A stretch of DNA of 19,990 nucleotides from Legionella longbeachae (GTDB taxonomy: Bacteria > Pseudomonadota > Gammaproteobacteria > Legionellales > Legionellaceae). How positions within the stretch are numbered: position 1 is the first letter of the stretch; every line of letters begins with the position of its first letter. Under the pieces are notes generated by a model, which was not told where the DNA came from, ran no database searches, and saw only the letters and a list, made by a program, of their open reading frames with translations. Both the position numbers and the translations under genes were made by a program. Location of the stretch: positions 1 through 19,990 of the forward strand of contig JACPOX010000201.1 of the NCBI GenBank assembly GCA_016191305.1. Direction: 5' to 3'. Below are positions 1 to 10,055 of the stretch, one piece after another.

Positions 1-2229
1 GTTTAACTTTATATTGGAGCGAATATCTTCATTGATAAACATTTGAAACGCGGAAGCAGTTTGAGTAAGAACGGTAACTTTTTCAGATTCAACAAGTTGA
101 TAAAACTGCTTAGTATCTCGGGTGACTTCATATGGAATTACTAGCAAAGTCCCGCCAAATAAAAATGCCCCCCAAATTTCCCAAACAGAAATATCGAAGC
201 AAAAAGTATGAAAAAGACTCCATACATCTTGGGGTGAAAACTCAAACTGTTTTTTTAGGGATTCAAACAAACAAATAATATTCTCATGTGAAACACCAAC
301 CCCCTTGGGTTTACCAGTCGAGCCAGAAGTATAAAGAACATAGGCTAAATCCTGTGGATTCACCTGATGATTTATAGGCTTATTAACAAAACTGGCTGAC
401 TGGGTTATTTGCTCGTCATCCATATAGATAATTCGTTCAGCCATAAAGTCAAGATTTAAAGCATCATGTATTTTATGAGTTAACAGTAACGAGGCATTAC
501 TATGATTAATCATGTAATTAATGCGTTCCTGAGGATACTTGGGATCAATGGGAACATAGGCCGCCCCCGCTTTTAGAATCCCAAGGATCCCAAAAATCAT
601 GTCCTGGCTTCTATCAACACATAAAGCAATTAGGGTGTCAGGTGGCAATTCACATCCATATAATTGCAGGTATTGTTCTCTAATATAGGATGCCCATTGA
701 TTACTACGTTCTTGTATCGTTGCATAGTCATATCGATTGGCCTCGTAAACCAAGCCTATTTGTTGTGGATGCCGAGAAACAGTATCTGCAAACAATTCAC
801 CTAGTGAGGCAGTGACTACCCGGTCAAGTTTTGCAGTAAAATACTTCTCTTTCATCCGTTGCATTTCAATATCATCTATTAAACGAAATGATGAAACCAA
901 TCCTTCGGGATTATTCAGAATATTTTTTAACAAAATCATAAAACTACTGGCAATTCGCTCAATAATTTCTTGTTCAAATAATGCCTCTCTGTATTCAAAG
1001 TAGGCTGTGATGCTTTCCTTACTTTCTTCCAACATAAAAAGAGAGAGATCAAACTTGGCTGTTTTAGAAAAATAATGATGTTCTTGTTCTGATGTTAATC
1101 CTTCGAGCATCAATTTTACTTTCCCAGTATTAGCCCAAACAAACATGGTTTGAATTAATGGATGTTGTCCTGAAGCTTTTCTGGCAATATTTAATTTAGG
1201 AGCGATATGTTCAAATGCTACTTCCTGTTTGCAAAGAGAAGAAAAAACTTGTGATTTTACTCGTGACAACAAATCAAGAAAATGTTCCTCTTCCTTTAAA
1301 ATAACTCTCACGGGTAAAGTATTGATAAAATAACCCAAGATTTGTCGTTCAAGATCATGTTCCCTATTTGCAAAAGGAACACCAATAAGGATGTCTTGGC
1401 TGCGCGTATATTGACTTATTAAAATGCAGTATGTGGCGTAAAGAACATGAAAAACAGTCATTCGATGCGCTTGTGCAAATTCATTCATCTTAACGCAAGT
1501 TGCTTTATCCAAACTAAAATAAACACGATTTCCGGAAAAAATATCGACCTTCTTTTGACTCTGAGGTGTTGTTAAAAAATTTAATCCTGAGTATCCTTTT
1601 AATGTTTCAGCAACAGCATCCACTTTTTCACGGTAAGCTGAAGATAAAAAATGCTCCTTTTCAACCTGAATGTGCTTAAAATAAGAGGACTTAGATTGTT
1701 TGCAGACAATTTCCTCTCCTCTCATGAATTGGTTGTAAAAACCATTCAAATCATTAACAAGAATAGAGAATGATGTTCCATCAGTAATAATGTGATGGAT
1801 AACGATAATCAGGATAAACTCATGATCACTTATTTTAACGAGTGACACACGCATCAAGGGGGCACGTTTTAGATCAAATCCATTACTAATTTGCTTACAA
1901 ATATACTCATCTATATGTTCCGTATTCAGTTCACTTATGACTTCAAAATCTAACACTGCCTGTTGATGTAACGTCTGAAAGATATTTCCTTGCTGATCTT
2001 TATCAAAAGAGGTGCGCAATATTTCATGCTTCTCCATTAAAGCATAAAATGCCTTTTTTAATGTGTTTATAGAAAGAAAGCCTTTAAGAGAATAAATCAG
2101 ATGTTCGTTATATGCTGATCGAGCTGCACCGTCCATTGAATGAATAAACCATAGTTCTTTTTGACCAATGGATAGCTCATATTTTTGTACTTCAAGCTCT
2201 TGTCGATTTGTAAGTATTATTTCAGACAT
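1..2229 (-). CDS. Nonribosomal peptide synthetase, condensation-adenylation (C-A) part; 3' end beyond the window
   Basis: The minus strand is open without a stop from an ATG at 2229 to the window edge, 743 codons. Residues 1 to about 430 are a condensation domain with an intact HHIITDG catalytic motif (145-151), then GVPFANR and GYFINTLPVR core motifs. An adenylation domain starts near residue 470, with the P-loop motif YTSGSTGKPKG near 630 and FDISVWEIWG further on. It breaks off before the YGPTE motif. The start is supported by AAGGTGG just upstream. The first 8 bases overlap the end of the preceding AT-remnant/PCP frame, which suggests translational coupling. The Asp in FDIS is the residue that usually holds the substrate amino group, so an amino acid is the likely substrate; the rest of the specificity code is outside the window. 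It should condense the upstream carrier-bound intermediate with a new amino acid. Confidence 0.93.
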   Translation of the reverse strand, partial: MSEIILTNRQELEVQKYELSIGQKELWFIHSMDGAARSAYNEHLIYSLKGFLSINTLKKAFYALMEKHEILRTSFDKDQQGNIFQTLHQQAVLDFEVISELNTEHIDEYICKQISNGFDLKRAPLMRVSLVKISDHEFILIIVIHHIITDGTSFSILVNDLNGFYNQFMRGEEIVCKQSKSSYFKHIQVEKEHFLSSAYREKVDAVAETLKGYSGLNFLTTPQSQKKVDIFSGNRVYFSLDKATCVKMNEFAQAHRMTVFHVLYATYCILISQYTRSQDILIGVPFANREHDLERQILGYFINTLPVRVILKEEEHFLDLLSRVKSQVFSSLCKQEVAFEHIAPKLNIARKASGQHPLIQTMFVWANTGKVKLMLEGLTSEQEHHYFSKTAKFDLSLFMLEESKESITAYFEYREALFEQEIIERIASSFMILLKNILNNPEGLVSSFRLIDDIEMQRMKEKYFTAKLDRVVTASLGELFADTVSRHPQQIGLVYEANRYDYATIQERSNQWASYIREQYLQLYGCELPPDTLIALCVDRSQDMIFGILGILKAGAAYVPIDPKYPQERINYMINHSNASLLLTHKIHDALNLDFMAERIIYMDDEQITQSASFVNKPINHQVNPQDLAYVLYTSGSTGKPKGVGVSHENIICLFESLKKQFEFSPQDVWSLFHTFCFDISVWEIWGAFLFGGTLLVIPYEVTRDTKQFYQLVESEKVTVLTQTASAFQMFINEDIRSNIKLN

Positions 2230-3337
2230 GTTCCACCTTTTTTGTACTTATATAACGAAGCATTTCTCCAAATTCATTATTTTGGATTACTTCTTCTAAA
2301 TTCATATCAATGAGCAATGAGGTTTTAATGTGTTTCAGTAAATCAATAAAAGACAATGAATCGCCTCCAAGCTCTAGGAAATGCGAAGAATCATTTAGTT
2401 CTGCTGCAGATACTCCAAGAACCTTTGACCACATGTCTTTCAACTGATCTTGCAGAGGTAGATCTGGAGCCACAGATACATTCTCATTGTAAACTGTTGT
2501 TTGATTTGAATTTGACCTTTCAATCACATATTGTTTTTTTGTAAAACAATAGCTCGGGATACGTACTTTTCGTGAACTTTCTGGAGTAACATTGATAGAA
2601 TCCCAAACTATAGGTAAACCATTAGACCATAACCAGCCTATTGCTTTTAGAAAAACAAACTCGGCACTTTGTTCTTTTTCCGGAAGAATATGAACTATTG
2701 TATCCAAAGAACAATCTACGTTCTGCGGCTTGTCCGCGGAATTCAGCGATAGTACTAAATTCCTGGATCCCGCGGACAAGCTGAGGGACGTAGAAGCACA
2801 GAAATTCTGGTAGAAACTTTTATCTTCTTTAACCTCACCCGCCAATAACCCCACAAGTGCATCCTCAAAAGAAATATCACCTGCAAGTACTTCAGCTAAA
2901 TAAATTCCAGAACCCTGAGCAATTAACTGATAAGACTCTACTTTTGTTGAAAGCAATAATTGCATCATTGCGTATTGAATCGAAAAAGACACACATTTGG
3001 AAAAAAATTCAGTGGACGAATCAGATGACTCAATTTTAATATCAATACCATACTTATCCTGAATAATCCCAACACAAAAATCAAAAGAGTCTTTAAATTT
3101 TGGATATTTATGATACAAGCATTCAAATGGATCAAATGTGACGATTATATAGTCTGACAATATAAAAATAACTTGTGGTGTTTCTTGAAAATCTCTTTCA
3201 TGAAGATACGAAGAACAAATACGAGCATTGTATTTTTGCTCATCATCACTAACAATGAACAGTCCTCTCTCTTGAAATTCTGCTCGGCCTTGCTGAGCCG
3301 TAAAGGCAATATGAGGCAACGTAGTCGGTTCAATCAA
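2222..3337 (-). CDS. PKS fragment: degenerate acyltransferase remnant plus carrier (PCP/ACP) domain; probably the broken 3' part of the gene at 3352-6483
   Basis: This is a 371-residue frame from a TTG at 3337. The frame is open back to 3367, but contains no ATG and no ribosome binding site. Residues 7-30 match the KS-to-AT linker (LPHIAFTAQQGRAEF, compare LADVAYTLQxGRxAF). Residues 55-265 resemble an acyltransferase: VIFIL where VFxFPGQG is expected, a LYHKYPKFKDSFDFC stretch, AQGSGIY (140-146) where GHSxGEY is expected, and a typical AT tail (PSYCFTKKQYVIE). The nucleophile Ser, the GQG loop and the central part of the domain are missing, so the AT cannot be active. Residues 295-365 are a carrier domain with the phosphopantetheine motif LGGDSL (Ser327). 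About 27 residues (around 180-206) are encoded by an inserted palindromic element at 2715-2794. The downstream C-A gene overlaps it by 8 bases. Confidence 0.8.
   Translation of the reverse strand: MIEPTTLPHIAFTAQQGRAEFQERGLFIVSDDEQKYNARICSSYLHERDFQETPQVIFILSDYIIVTFDPFECLYHKYPKFKDSFDFCVGIIQDKYGIDIKIESSDSSTEFFSKCVSFSIQYAMMQLLLSTKVESYQLIAQGSGIYLAEVLAGDISFEDALVGLLAGEVKEDKSFYQNFCASTSLSLSAGSRNLVLSLNSADKPQNVDCSLDTIVHILPEKEQSAEFVFLKAIGWLWSNGLPIVWDSINVTPESSRKVRIPSYCFTKKQYVIERSNSNQTTVYNENVSVAPDLPLQDQLKDMWSKVLGVSAAELNDSSHFLELGGDSLSFIDLLKHIKTSLLIDMNLEEVIQNNEFGEMLRYISTKKVEHV
2715..2794. repeat. 80-bp GC-rich palindromic element inserted in frame in a coding region
   Basis: The two halves are mirror images about position 2754.5. 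The arms begin TCTACGT (2715-2721) and end ACGTAGA (2788-2794). They contain a perfect 12-bp pair, GCTTGTCCGCGG (2728-2739) and CCGCGGACAAGC (2770-2781). Most of the remaining positions pair directly or as G-U, so the RNA could fold into a hairpin of about 36 bp. It is far richer in GC than its surroundings. It adds no stop codon to the minus-strand reading frame, and the segment it encodes has no counterpart in acyltransferases. In-frame palindromic insertions are known as Rickettsia palindromic elements; a dispersed family of this type is the likeliest explanation here. Confidence 0.75.
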
Positions 3338-3351
3338 ATCAATGTGTTTTT

Positions 3352-6300
3352 TTAATTTATTAGTGTTTCAAAATTTAATGTTGCTGGAAGAACTTTATGC
3401 TTTAAGGCAAAAACTGTCTTCATTAACCCAAAAACACCAGCCGCAGAATCGGTATGCCCTATATTGGTCTTAACTGATCCGATTGTACATCTACCTTCCT
3501 GATCAGTATATTTTTGATATACATTATGAAGCGCAGTCCATTCAATCGGATCTCCTAACTGAGTGCCTGTGCCATGCGCTTCAATATAACTAATATTATC
3601 TGGTGAACAATTTGCATTCTTAAGTGCTTTTTCAATAACAGCCGATTGTCCATCAACACTTGGCGCTGTAAAAGCCATTTTAGAGGAACCATCATTATTT
3701 ATAGCCCCACCTTTAATCACTGCATAAATAGTATCTTTCTGTTCAATCGCATCACTAAGTCTTTTTAAAACAACAATACCCACTCCGCTCGTTACGACAG
3801 TACCTTTAGCACGAGCATCAAATGCTCGACAATAACCATCAGGGGATTCAATCATATCTTCTTGATATTCATATCCATGATTATAAAAAAGCGAAACGCC
3901 GCCAGCCAAAGCCATATCGGAACTACGAGTTTTAAGACTTTCACAAGCCATCTGCACTGCAACAAGAGAACTAGAACAAGCTGTTTGCAAAGTAATACTT
4001 GGCCCAGTCAAATTTAATTTATATGATGCCTTGGTGCTGAGAAAATCCTTTTCATTGCCAAGAATGGCTTGAAACCAATTAGTCTGCGCTATTGGTGAAG
4101 CATAAAGGTGATTCATAAAATAGTCATTTCTACCTTGAGTAGCAAAAACGGCAATATCTCCTTTAAACTTTTCAGGAACATTTCCACTATATTCTAAAGC
4201 TTCCCAGGCACACTCTAAAAACTGCCGCTGTTGTGGATCCATAATTTCGGCATCTTTTACTGAGTAACCAAAAAAACTTGCATCAAAGCTAAAAGGATCC
4301 TCATAAATTGCGCCTCGTTTTACGTAAGTATCACGGGCAAGTAAAGATTCGTTTATAGAGTTTGCTCTGAGTTCTTCTGCAGATAATTGACGTAAATTAG
4401 TTCCCTCATTAATGAGAAGCTCCCAAAAAGATTCAGGATCCTTTGCTCCTGGAATTCTACATGCCATTCCTACGATGGCTATAGGCTCATTAAACTGAAA
4501 CTCTGCTGTTGTTTGTTGCTCAATTTTTTGCTCTTCCATTTGATTGGAGTTTTTCTTGGAGGTCGCAATGAGTGCTGAAACTCGCTCTGATAGCTGCGTC
4601 AATGTTGTATGTTGAAATAGTTCAACAATATTAAGTGTTATGGCAAAAGCATCCTCAAGTTCTTTTCTAACCATCATCGCCGCTAAGGAGTTACCACCTA
4701 AATTAAAAAAGGAGGCATCCTTTCCGAAATGATTAAGATTTAGAATTCTGGACCAAATTGAAGAAATAGTCTGTTCAATTGATACCGATTTAGCTTGTGA
4801 GCTATTTGTATTCTCTAATTGAAACTCGGGAGTCGGTAATGCTTTTCTGTCTAACTTACCATTAGTGGTCACAGGCAATGTATCTAAATAAATAAAGATA
4901 CTGGGAATCATATAATCCGGTAATATGGATGCTAGATGTTTACGAATCAGATTATCATCAAATTTATTATCTGCTACGTAATAAGCAACCAAGTAGGAAA
5001 GACTATCATTTTTGTGAAGTAGCACTACGCTATGTTTTATTCCTGGAAATTCTAATACCTTGGTTTCTATTTCCGCTAATTCAATACGATATCCTCGAAG
5101 TTTCACTTGAAAATCATTGCGTCCGGCATATTCAAGATTACCGTCTGGCAACCATTTTACCAAATCATTGGTTTTATAAATTCTTGGATATCGCGCACCA
5201 CTTTGATTAAAAAATGGATTAGCAATAAATCGTTCTTGAGTCAATTCAGAATTATTTAAATATCCTCTAGATAAACTAGGTCCTCCAACATAAAGCTCAC
5301 CAATAGCACCGATAGGCAACAGCTGGAGGTATTTATCAACAACAACACCAATTCGATTTGAGTAAGGTCGACCTATGGGAACTGAATTTAATAAACTAAA
5401 ATCATCATGAAGCACATATGTAGTACAGAAAGTACTATTTTCTGTTGGTCCATAAGCATTGATTAAATTTTTGGGTTTATATTCAGAATTGAGTAAATTA
5501 AGCATTATATTTTTAGTTAATGCTTCACCACCAACCAGTAAAAATTTTAATGGAGCAAACACTGTTTCATCAAGCGTATACAATAAATCAAACAATGCCC
5601 TTGTTATCAGTAAGATGCTAAGGTTTTTTTTATCAATTGTTTCTTTAAATAGAGTTGGATTAGATAATAATTCGAAAAAATTATCTGGAATAAACAAGCG
5701 CGCCCCATTTAATAATGAACCCCATAGCTCGAATGTGGTTGAATCAAAAGAGACATCGGAAAAAAATGCCATTGTATCTGATTCATCCGCGCAAAAATAA
5801 TTTGCACATACTACTTGTGATATCACATTGGCATGTTGCGCTAATACACCCTTAGGCGTCCCAGAGCTTCCAGAAGTGTAAATAACATATGCTAAATCAG
5901 TTGGGCTAAGATGAATATATAAATTACTCGGATCTTCTTTCAAGAATAATCGCTCATCAAGCAAAATCTGCTGGAGAGCAGTATGATTTTTTTTAAATTG
6001 TTCCGATAAATGACTCTCCGTCAAAATGAGTTTGCTGTTTATATCCGTTAAGATATGTTGGATACGATTGACAGGATAGTCTGGATTAACTGGCACATAA
6101 GCCCCACCTGCTTTTAATATGCCTAATATTCCAATAATAAAGTCCGCACTTCGTCCTACACTAATGGGAATCAATGTATCTGGTTTTAATTCTTTTTGTG
6201 TTACTGATTTGTATTGACGCCGGATATATCGGGCTAATTGATTTGATAATTCATTAAGTTCGGAGAAGCTAAGGACCACATCTTTATACTCTATTGCAAT

Positions 6301-6483
6301 GTGATTTGGTGATCTGGCCACTTGTTCTTCAAAGAGTTGGCATAGTGTTTTGAATTCATAAGACATCGATTCAACTGCCTTATAATCGTAAACTTTTTTG
6401 CTATATTTCTCGGGAGTCAGGTAAGATTCCTTTTTCAAATCAGCACCAGTTTTTTCTATTATTTTTATATTGTTTGATGACAA
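3352..6483 (-). CDS. Hybrid NRPS-PKS: adenylation, peptidyl carrier and C-terminally cut ketosynthase (A-PCP-KS)
   Basis: This is a 1043-residue product. The TTG start at 6483 is supported by GAGGGAG 7 bases upstream. The adenylation domain spans about 45-555: YTSGSSGTPKG (202-212), FDSTTFELWG (246-255), AYGPTE (343-348), GELYVGG (395-401) and the catalytic Lys in NGKLDRKALP (541-550). The PCP has LGGNSL with Ser599. The KS begins at EPIAIVGMACRIPG (666) and has the catalytic Cys836 in TACSSSL, His970 in EAHGTGT and His1010 in KTNIGH. It ends at residue 1043 after LPATLNFETLIN, without the FGxGGTNAH segment that completes the fold. Reading A-domain pocket positions by alignment to GrsA from memory gives D-S-F-L-L-G-A-T-F, close to Val/Ile-type codes, so an aliphatic amino acid is likely. 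The gene would load it and extend it with a ketide unit. An MFS exporter gene lies 76 bases upstream on the same strand. Confidence 0.92.
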   Translation of the reverse strand: MSSNNIKIIEKTGADLKKESYLTPEKYSKKVYDYKAVESMSYEFKTLCQLFEEQVARSPNHIAIEYKDVVLSFSELNELSNQLARYIRRQYKSVTQKELKPDTLIPISVGRSADFIIGILGILKAGGAYVPVNPDYPVNRIQHILTDINSKLILTESHLSEQFKKNHTALQQILLDERLFLKEDPSNLYIHLSPTDLAYVIYTSGSSGTPKGVLAQHANVISQVVCANYFCADESDTMAFFSDVSFDSTTFELWGSLLNGARLFIPDNFFELLSNPTLFKETIDKKNLSILLITRALFDLLYTLDETVFAPLKFLLVGGEALTKNIMLNLLNSEYKPKNLINAYGPTENSTFCTTYVLHDDFSLLNSVPIGRPYSNRIGVVVDKYLQLLPIGAIGELYVGGPSLSRGYLNNSELTQERFIANPFFNQSGARYPRIYKTNDLVKWLPDGNLEYAGRNDFQVKLRGYRIELAEIETKVLEFPGIKHSVVLLHKNDSLSYLVAYYVADNKFDDNLIRKHLASILPDYMIPSIFIYLDTLPVTTNGKLDRKALPTPEFQLENTNSSQAKSVSIEQTISSIWSRILNLNHFGKDASFFNLGGNSLAAMMVRKELEDAFAITLNIVELFQHTTLTQLSERVSALIATSKKNSNQMEEQKIEQQTTAEFQFNEPIAIVGMACRIPGAKDPESFWELLINEGTNLRQLSAEELRANSINESLLARDTYVKRGAIYEDPFSFDASFFGYSVKDAEIMDPQQRQFLECAWEALEYSGNVPEKFKGDIAVFATQGRNDYFMNHLYASPIAQTNWFQAILGNEKDFLSTKASYKLNLTGPSITLQTACSSSLVAVQMACESLKTRSSDMALAGGVSLFYNHGYEYQEDMIESPDGYCRAFDARAKGTVVTSGVGIVVLKRLSDAIEQKDTIYAVIKGGAINNDGSSKMAFTAPSVDGQSAVIEKALKNANCSPDNISYIEAHGTGTQLGDPIEWTALHNVYQKYTDQEGRCTIGSVKTNIGHTDSAAGVFGLMKTVFALKHKVLPATLNFETLIN

Positions 6484-6559: not shown

Positions 6560-7813
6560 CTACTGACTACCCGTACGTGCAAACCCAATGCTTTTACTTT
6601 TTACCGTTAATTTACGTAAACTAAAAATACTTATAATGAGCAGCGCAGTGCAAAATAAGAATGCGATGCCTACACCATAAAAATTCAAACCACCAGTCAA
6701 TAACGGACCGATACCCCAGGTTATAGAGGATAAGGCAGCGACAACGCCCATGACACGTCCTTGCCAATTGCTTTCAGTTGTATCTGAAATAAGGGTTAAA
6801 AGTGCTATATACATCAAGCCCGTAGCAGCTGAGATGCAGGTGAATAAAATCACGTTTAATACAAAAGAATGAATGCATAGAGAGATGACAAAATAAGCGA
6901 TCTATTGAATAAGCAAAGTACAAAAAACAACATTTATTTTTTCAAAATAATTAAAGAGGTATTTGCCGCCAAACATCAAGGTGATTGAAAAAATGATTGC
7001 TTCCATACTTAATAGCATGTCCGTCGATGAACTTTGAGAAGGAAAATACCGACTTAAAAAAACAGGGATATCTGAGAAGAATAAACCAAAGGCCACCATA
7101 GAAAATAAGACTGCGAGTAAATAGTTATTTAAGACAGGCTTACTAAATGCAATTTTAATATTTGCAAAATCTTTTATGAGGTTAAATTGTTCTTTCGATT
7201 TTTTAGGGATATACGTTTCTTTAAAAAATAATTGAATGCTAACAAATCCAATCGCACTCATAATAGCACCGATTAAAAAAGTAGAAGCACCAACAGGGCC
7301 TATATTCACAAGCATTAAAAGCCCGCCTAAAATAGGACCCAAAGAAAATCCAAGGCAATTGGCAAGCATCAAAATCGAGAGATAAAATGACTTATTTTGA
7401 GGAGTGCTTATATCTACCGCTGCAGCTTGAGCCACAGACAAAGATCCCGCAGTCATTCCTGAAATAATTCGACCAAAAATTAAAAACCAAATACTACTCC
7501 AGTAACAACCCATTGCACTCAAAACAAAGCCTATTGTTAAACCTAACATTGAAATTTTTAGGCCAGGCTTTCGACCATATCGATCGGCAATCCCACCTAA
7601 AATAGGTGCAAAGAAAAACATGAACACACTGTAGATCGCCAATAAAAATTCATAGAGCATGTATCGAGACGTAGATGAAACTGTATCAGGTATGATAGTA
7701 GTATGCTCTTTTAAAAAAAGGGCTGCAAAAATGGAGAAAGCTATACCCCATCCCATTGAGTCTACGAAGACAACCCAAATTAGGGATGCTATACTTTTCT
7801 TTTTATTATTCAT
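6560..7813 (-). pseudogene. MFS drug/metabolite exporter interrupted by an in-frame TAG
   Basis: Two open stretches in one frame (7813-6905 and 6901-6560) are separated only by a TAG at 6904-6902. Read through, they give a normal-sized MFS protein of 417 residues. The stop falls inside a hydrophobic segment (TLLIQ, stop, IAYFVISL), and the sequence beyond it is clearly the last four or so membrane helices, including NWQGRVMGVVAALSS. The N-terminal half has the motif A loop GGIADRYGRKPG between helices 2 and 3. The start chosen is the ATG at 7813, which has GGAG 9 bases upstream. The longer GTG/ATG starts at 7876 and 7867 overlap the -10 box. The TAG is one base from CAG. Its place ahead of the NRPS/PKS genes suggests export of their product. 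The protein is probably inactive unless the codon is suppressed or is a sequence error. Confidence 0.85.
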
Positions 7814-7865
7814 TAGTACATTCTCCATATGTCTTGATTTTAAACACTGAGTGTTTATCAAAGGC

Positions 7866-7895
7866 ATTATATACACTTATAATAAACAGGCGCAA
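7866..7895 (-). promoter_or_regulatory. Candidate sigma-70 promoter of the MFS-NRPS/PKS operon
   Basis: On the minus strand a perfect TATAAT (7871-7866) is preceded, after 18 bases, by TTGCGC (7895-7890), which matches half of the -35 consensus. Transcription would begin near 7859, leaving a leader of about 45 bases before the ATG at 7813. The -35 match is weak. Confidence 0.4.
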
Positions 7896-9695: not shown

Positions 9696-10055
9696 ATGAA
9701 AATTATAGCTAAGTCACTTTTTTGTTCTTTTTTTTTTGCAAATATAGCTTTTGCCGATGATCAAATTTCGCAATTTAATACACAAATACAAAGTCAGTTA
9801 AGACAACTACAAGCACAACAGCAGCAACAAACACAACAAATGAACACTCAGATTCAAGATCAAATGAAAAAGCTACAAGCTGATTTACAACAACAAATAC
9901 AAACAACACATAATCAGCTTCAAAATCAGATAAAAACCCTCCAAAACCAATTACAAACACAAATCCAAACTGTAAATACTCAAGTACAACAATTAAAACA
10001 AAATATAAAAATACCCGTTACCACCCCAAATCCAGCTTCTCAAGTAAAGAGTTGA
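9696..10055 (+). CDS. Small secreted Gln-rich coiled-coil protein
   Basis: This is a 119-residue protein with an ATG preceded by AGGGA. Residues 1-20 form a signal peptide ending AFA, with cleavage expected before DDQ. There is no lipobox, so a soluble periplasmic or exported protein is likely. The mature 99 residues contain 35 Gln and almost no aromatics. They form repeated amphipathic units of the type xIQxQLxxLQ over about residues 24-102, consistent with a long helix or coiled coil. A short Pro/Thr tail follows (residues 104-119). The low-complexity composition makes homology assignment unreliable. No specific function can be given; a structural or cell-envelope role is a guess. Confidence 0.8.
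   Translation: MKIIAKSLFCSFFFANIAFADDQISQFNTQIQSQLRQLQAQQQQQTQQMNTQIQDQMKKLQADLQQQIQTTHNQLQNQIKTLQNQLQTQIQTVNTQVQQLKQNIKIPVTTPNPASQVKS

Follow-up and report, generated by a model that had tools for sequence, protein, structure and literature searches.

A palindromic element of 78 bp lies inside a nonribosomal peptide synthetase (NRPS)/polyketide synthase (PKS) gene on a 19,990-nucleotide stretch of Legionella longbeachae DNA (contig JACPOX010000201.1 of assembly GCA_016191305.1; hereafter the window, meaning the whole stretch analysed). Comparison of sequences within the genus and beyond shows the element to be a copy of a dispersed repeat and makes it reasonably probable that it is the gene-less short form of a cassette in which a small GIY-YIG nuclease gene is bracketed by the repeat's own hairpins. 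Nine genomes of the genus contain small nuclease genes bracketed by this repeat, which points to the nuclease as the likely mover.

A pair of hairpins dispersed through Legionella

The palindrome is built from two arms of 32 nt (2715–2746 and 2763–2794) that stand 16 nt apart and are 81% complementary. Comparison with other copies sets the limits of the element at 2716–2793, each half measuring 31 nt. A preliminary description of this DNA had reported an 80-bp near-perfect palindrome; the palindrome is present, and the repeat proper is 78 bp or 26 codons long. Other features of that description hold as they were put. The element lies in an open reading frame (ORF) without introducing a stop (reverse strand, 2222–3337, 371 amino acids), and it is richer in GC than its context (0.55 in the 80-bp step 2720–2799 against 0.29–0.46 in the non-overlapping steps outside the element). 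The message is also predicted to carry a hairpin, as the coding-strand RNA of 2710–2799 folds at -41.4 kcal/mol (z -6.2) and none of 200 shuffles was equally stable. The sequence GCTTGTCCGCGG occurs twice in the window against a shuffle mean of 0.01, with one mismatch allowed, and an Rfam scan of the window returned no family reaching its gathering score.

The element is multicopy. Searching the window genome gave 16 blastn matches, two sites being counted on both strands, and a 12-nt core with at most one mismatch matched 15 times compared with three times for a reversed control pattern. This differs from the single copy conserved in homologues that the preliminary description had named as evidence against a mobile repeat. 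Across the genus 37 of 45 genomes carry a match, with up to 40 matches per genome. A collection of 108 distinct pairs (the window copy and 107 others) was assembled from the best genus matches and from the window genome, and is therefore a non-random sample; two of 87 pairs were dropped as duplicates, and L327, a half without a partner, was left out.

The conserved unit appears to be the hairpin rather than the long palindrome. Among 170 halves the loop CTTGT is present in 146, the tag CTAC in 94 and the tail CCAG in 128 (one window half ends in CCAG, the other in TCAG), while CGTC replaces the tag in only two; 1416 of 1530 stem cells are paired. Over 118 distinct halves, 68 of 1062 stem cells are doubly compensated, against a mean of 16.8 and a maximum of 29 in 1000 shuffles. 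Comparing the halves within each copy gives 216 stem pairs that differ; in 112 of these both halves remain paired, 60 having changed on both sides. Because such stem differences are frequent and each half nevertheless keeps its own hairpin, a long cruciform is the less likely unit of conservation. Single halves also occur besides the head-to-head pairs. Three groups of pairs (L002, L003, L005, L008 and L021; L189–L191 and L204–L207; L194–L200 and L203) lie within larger repeats that differ among the groups (CCTTAAGGCA, CTCTTGATC and TTAAGTTAAG types), as if the palindrome pair were nested in several kinds of outer element.

GIY-YIG nuclease genes between the palindromes

On contig C162 of genome G000, two inverted halves bracket 1.2 kb containing a remnant of an IS5-type transposase and a small ORF that Pfam assigns to GIY-YIG. 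This nuclease gene is itself multicopy, with matches in 36 of the 45 genus genomes and 23 matches in G049 alone; PHROGs holds no family for it. Seventy nuclease loci were fetched from the genus, of which 36 from 14 genomes are close copies (at least 74% identity, with the C-terminus reached), 31 fall below 74% identity and three do not reach query residue 90. The right half begins 16–18 bp past the coding match in 34 of the 36 close copies (16 bp in 30, 17 in two and 18 in two), and both halves are present at 30 of the 36, in nine genomes. Because 20 of the 36 come from G049, these copies are not independent. Three of the remaining six (L089, L096 and L131) lie near contig ends, and a fourth, L092, is flanked on each side by a diverged palindrome. 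Inverted flanks scoring at least 17 occur at 13 of the 31 divergent loci, compared with a null whose 99% quantile is 14.5 and whose maximum is 16.25 in 600 draws; twelve of these carry other palindromes and one, L144, carries ends of the insertion sequence (IS) type.

Bracketing extends well beyond Legionella. The test took the best ungapped inverted match between the 300 bp before and the 300 bp after the gene, with a score of at least 17 counted as bracketed; loci that offered under 150 bp of sequence on one side were excluded (3 of 29 and 1 of 28). Under this threshold 20 of 26 loci from the class, 10 of 20 more distant loci of the class and 16 of 27 from the phylum are bracketed, 46 of 73 in total. 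None of 439 displaced control positions was bracketed (88 of them beside another GIY-YIG clade), nor was any of 18 genes of that other clade, which has 30–38% identity and lost two of its 20 loci for lack of a tblastn hit. The palindromes outside the genus are mostly of the CGTCATTCC..GGAATCCAG type, that is, CGTC-type, and a strict CGTC-type motif is found on both sides at 23 of 77 loci but at only one of 213 controls.

Palindrome and nuclease also vary together. Similarity between palindromes tracks similarity between nucleases over 59 bracketed loci (rho 0.49), and does so outside the genus alone (rho 0.56, 47 loci); in neither case did any of 2000 permutations reach the observed value. Seven nuclease residues are near-invariant across the 59 loci (Y5, Y16, G18, R26, H30, E51 and E63), and active-site-like positions such as these are catalytic by what is established for the GIY-YIG fold.

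In a plasmid collection 34 records carry the nuclease, and eight were chosen by hand among the 30 matches listed. Five of the eight score at least 17 (Sinorhizobium meliloti, Azospirillum lipoferum, Novosphingobium aromaticivorans, Neisseria gonorrhoeae and Rhizobium sp. CIAT894). Planktothrix agardhii scores 15, and an inverted repeat can be seen to either side of its gene; Photobacterium sp. GJ3 and Rhizobium tumorigenes show no bracketing. On plasmid AZO_p3 of A. lipoferum 4B the GIY-YIG cassette (L332 1489–1782) sits between sufB and sufC of the iron–sulfur cluster assembly genes, with a whole palindrome pair on each side of the nuclease gene. The plasmid records contain no DNA match for the window gene or its palindrome.

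Copies inside synthase genes

Most copies lie outside genes. A site was considered spanned when an open frame of at least 150 amino acids covered it with 25 amino acids on each side. Long frames span 1424 of 2000 arbitrary 80-bp stretches of the genus, compared with 10 of 85 sites in the first set and 3 of 23 in the next, so that 95 of 108 sites are not spanned. Five spanned sites (L056, L058, L069 and L186 of the first set and L320 of the next) lie near the end of the frame, are probably outside a real gene, judged by position only, and were not counted as in-gene. Eight of the 108 then remain deep within genes, namely the window copy, L054, L059, L061, L062, L193 and two in L325.

The hosts of all eight are PKS or NRPS genes by Pfam; 20 arbitrary stretches of genus DNA contain 0 bp of PKS/NRPS-like DNA in 400 kb (tblastn, E 1e-20, six query proteins). 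All eight are exactly 78 bp long compared with 20 of 100 other pairs (Fisher p 9e-6), and a length divisible by three is found in all eight compared with 27 of 100 (Fisher p 7e-5). Seven are translated in one common frame, giving peptides like ATSRGLSAGSNDAAIFLDPVDKPRDVG. L054 and one of the L325 sites have comparable positions in related genes and could descend from a single insertion; the eight sites cannot therefore all be taken as independent. At L059, which sequence alignment identifies as a clean insertion at the protein level, the insert lies in an adenylation domain; the best 120 of 7883 homologues have 0–13 residues opposite its 27, and 29 of these 120 have none. Dispersal, in-frame entry and the clean case at L059 bear out the likeness to Rickettsia palindromic elements (RPEs) drawn in the preliminary description. 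On contig C54 of genome G016, three in-frame copies lie in PKS genes within approximately 10 kb (L325 1517–1938 and L062 1496–1573).

The two ORFs that make up the host of the window copy (Table 1) are parts of one broken NRPS/PKS gene that is probably decaying: about 80 residues kept in L. jamestowniensis and eight other relatives are missing between them. L. jamestowniensis gave the only locus matched among named genomes, and L. quateirensis and Tatlockia are further named relatives, in keeping with a likely placement in Legionella. As PF00698, the Pfam acyltransferase family, has no match in the host ORF, the acyltransferase label depends on the alignment with L. jamestowniensis together with known motifs, from which we presume a remnant of that domain. 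Nearly all of this remnant is absent in seven of nine aligned relatives, which suggests that the place of insertion is tolerant. Comparison with empty sites in related strains, which the preliminary description had suggested, did not yield a clean one at this gene, the closest orthologue (L. jamestowniensis) being of approximately equal length there and the other relatives too diverged.

Table 1. Position of the palindromic element and its host gene in the window.
Feature	Position	Strand	Description
Palindromic element	2716..2793	.	78 bp (26 codons in the frame of the host); hairpin halves arranged head to head
First half	2716..2746	+	Tag CTAC, 9-bp stem, 5-nt loop CTTGT, tail TCAG
Spacer	2747..2762	.	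16 nt between the halves
Second half	2763..2793	-	Tag CTAC, 9-bp stem containing a mismatch, 5-nt loop CTTGT, tail CCAG (reverse-strand reading)
Host ORF	2222..3337	-	371 amino acids; presumed acyltransferase remnant with the insert, then a carrier-protein domain (PF00550)
Upstream ORF	3352..6483	-	Same NRPS/PKS gene: adenylation, carrier and ketosynthase domains; frame broken before the next ORF

It is quite possible, if short of probable, that the window copy is a neutral fossil in an already dying gene and is in frame by chance, an explanation compatible with a nuclease-driven origin of the family. The host is split and shorter than its orthologues by the residues noted above, and an adjoining gene for a transporter resembling the major facilitator superfamily (MFS; named by eye, 6560–7876) is likewise divided into two reverse-strand ORFs (6560–6853 and 6902–7876). 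This split and the break at 3337/3352 suggest either a decaying biosynthetic cluster or errors in the draft, which is 82% complete in 323 contigs and in which an assembly error is possible. Chance does not readily account for the shared 78-bp length of all eight deep sites and the common frame of seven, and the hosts of the other in-gene copies are open over the whole 3 kb fetched. Elsewhere in the window, a forward-strand ORF at 9696–10055 encodes a short, extremely glutamine-rich protein with a signal-like N-terminus.

Routes of spread and relation to known repeats

A nuclease-driven origin would work as follows. The full cassette would comprise the GIY-YIG gene between two hairpins and the window type would be the gene-less pair. 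The nuclease would recognise the hairpins of its own cassette and nick them, perhaps while they are single-stranded or form cruciforms in replicating DNA, and mending of the resulting break would place a copy of the cassette, or of the short pair, elsewhere. Insertions into genes would survive only where the frame is kept, and most of them would be retained in long modular synthases, where linkers would tolerate them.

Several observations weigh against this origin. A score of 17 is not reached by 27 of 73 nuclease loci outside the genus, nor by 18 of the 31 divergent genus loci. Some of the displaced control positions are genic, and palindromes are scarce in genes in any case; the control that samples gene flanks has only 18 loci. 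The permutation test does not correct for common descent among neighbouring taxa, and the 12 genus loci in it were hand-picked from bracketed ones. Selection of pairs by similarity to the window copy may favour those of 78 bp, and at 104 of the 216 differing stem pairs one half or both fail to pair. Over the 45 genomes the palindrome and the nuclease show no significant co-occurrence (30 with both, seven with the palindrome only, six with the nuclease only and two with neither; Fisher p 0.65), which may be explained by clade-specific palindromes and by remnants that outlive their source. Finally, the spread of the G049 nuclease copies can be explained by an IS5-family element with its own transposase.

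A different relationship, which we consider unlikely, would make the nuclease gene a guest: the palindromes would spread by other means and GIY-YIG genes would home into them as cut sites. Classical GIY-YIG homing endonucleases do home into cut sites, seven of 45 genomes hold the palindrome without a relative of the nuclease, and the A. lipoferum gene has a complete palindrome pair on either side. A guest would not be expected to keep the spacing seen in Legionella, where the right half follows the coding match by 16 bp in 30 of 34 close copies and by 17–18 bp in the other four, with the gene enclosed by the pair as though it occupied the spacer. That palindrome and nuclease sequences vary together also counts against a guest, though homing to a preferred site would produce the same pattern.

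The IS5 connection raises the further scenario that the palindrome belongs to the subterminal sequence of an IS5-family IS and that the short pairs are miniature derivatives moved by its transposase. Many G049 nuclease copies do lie in such an element of at most 1343 bp, with the palindrome just inside the terminal repeats, 15–17 of 17 bases matching at each end and the transposase (NF033580) seen in L117; shorter nuclease forms of 453–601 bp, found also in G005 and G010, have no ORF of transposase length. IS-type ends flank both sides in only two of the 108 short pairs, however, and the window copy is not one of them. Outside the genus the search for bracketing palindromes was confined to 300 bp on either side of the gene, too short a distance to accommodate a transposase gene as well, and it succeeded at 46 of 73 loci. 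The scenario is improbable. The two pairs with IS5-type terminal repeats (L077 1435–1541 and L079 1429–1535, each with a 45-nt spacer) look like miniature IS5-GIY-YIG elements and count in its favour. Y1 transposases (PF01797), present in 28 of 45 genus genomes, were rejected as the mover, since none of 30 loci is bracketed and only one has any half within approximately 1.5 kb.

The nuclease-driven origin invites a wider proposal that remains tentative, its chances lying a little under even. CGTC-type proteobacterial palindromes, including Neisseria dRS3 and Rickettsia members, may be gene-less forms of a second system of repetitive extragenic palindromes (REPs) driven by small GIY-YIG nucleases in place of a RAYT transposase, whose lineages would co-evolve with their own palindromes; the Legionella palindrome would in addition be a source of in-frame PKS/NRPS linkers. 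A small nuclease gene that is bracketed by one palindrome and varies with it is a concrete candidate mover for a large class of palindromes whose mover had been left open. If the proposal is correct, a second class of enzyme besides Y1 transposases is able to sustain REP populations. The in-frame copies in PKS/NRPS genes represent a route by which a repeat can add linker peptides to modular enzymes.

REPIN/RAYT systems consist of a short inverted pair of REPs and a cognate enzyme gene that has those REPs on its flanks. As far as descriptions of them were compared, the Legionella family shares both features; its enzyme is a GIY-YIG nuclease and not a Y1 tyrosine transposase, none of the 30 Y1 loci from the genus being bracketed. 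Within the literature compared, the partner enzyme would be of a kind undescribed for REPs. Literature pairing GIY-YIG with repeat or REP terms gave no link between a REP and the nuclease at the level of title and abstract among the matches listed, which is no proof of absence.

In architecture the family is built like the CGTC REPs, which Di Nocera 2013 (PMC3733652) defines by a hairpin with an 8–9-bp stem, a 4–5-nt loop and a CCA tail, mostly arranged as head-to-head dimers. The paper counts two R. conorii families (RPE-4 and RPE-6) and Neisseria dRS3 in this class and lists S. meliloti, A. lipoferum and N. aromaticivorans as species that carry it. It describes the class as apparently without a dedicated transposase, and its main text mentions neither Legionella nor GIY-YIG. 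The window family shares the 9-bp stem, the 5-nt loop and the head-to-head dimers. Both window halves carry CTAC where the class has CGTC, so the element is not classed as a CGTC REP and, by its architecture, would be a CTAC-tagged relative.

Coxiella, a related gammaproteobacterium, harbours the miniature inverted-repeat elements QMITE1 and QMITE2, which likewise add in-frame residues; QMITE2 differs in its length of 150–190 bp and in containing a GTAG REP, and GIY-YIG does not appear in the main text of that report (PMC5896051). A miniature inverted-repeat transposable element of the IS5 family would have the terminal inverted repeats of its parent IS, which the window copy does not have on both sides. 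In evolved L. pneumophila, 11 mutation hotspots lie beside GIY-YIG genes and are regarded by the authors as possible recombination hotspots (PMC12308824), on which a palindrome-nuclease partnership could bear; palindromes are not mentioned at these hotspots in the part of that report dealing with them, nor in the GIY-YIG passage of PMC6193728.

With the RPEs the Legionella repeat shares a palindromic structure, dispersal, in-frame entry into ORFs and an added peptide. It differs in its host group, in its length (78 bp against approximately 150 bp as given for RPEs in PMC10969869) and in that its deep in-gene copies are found only in PKS/NRPS genes. Set against the published descriptions, the window repeat would best be regarded as a Legionella-type family built like the CGTC-type REPs, with a likeness to the Rickettsia elements that is one of behaviour.
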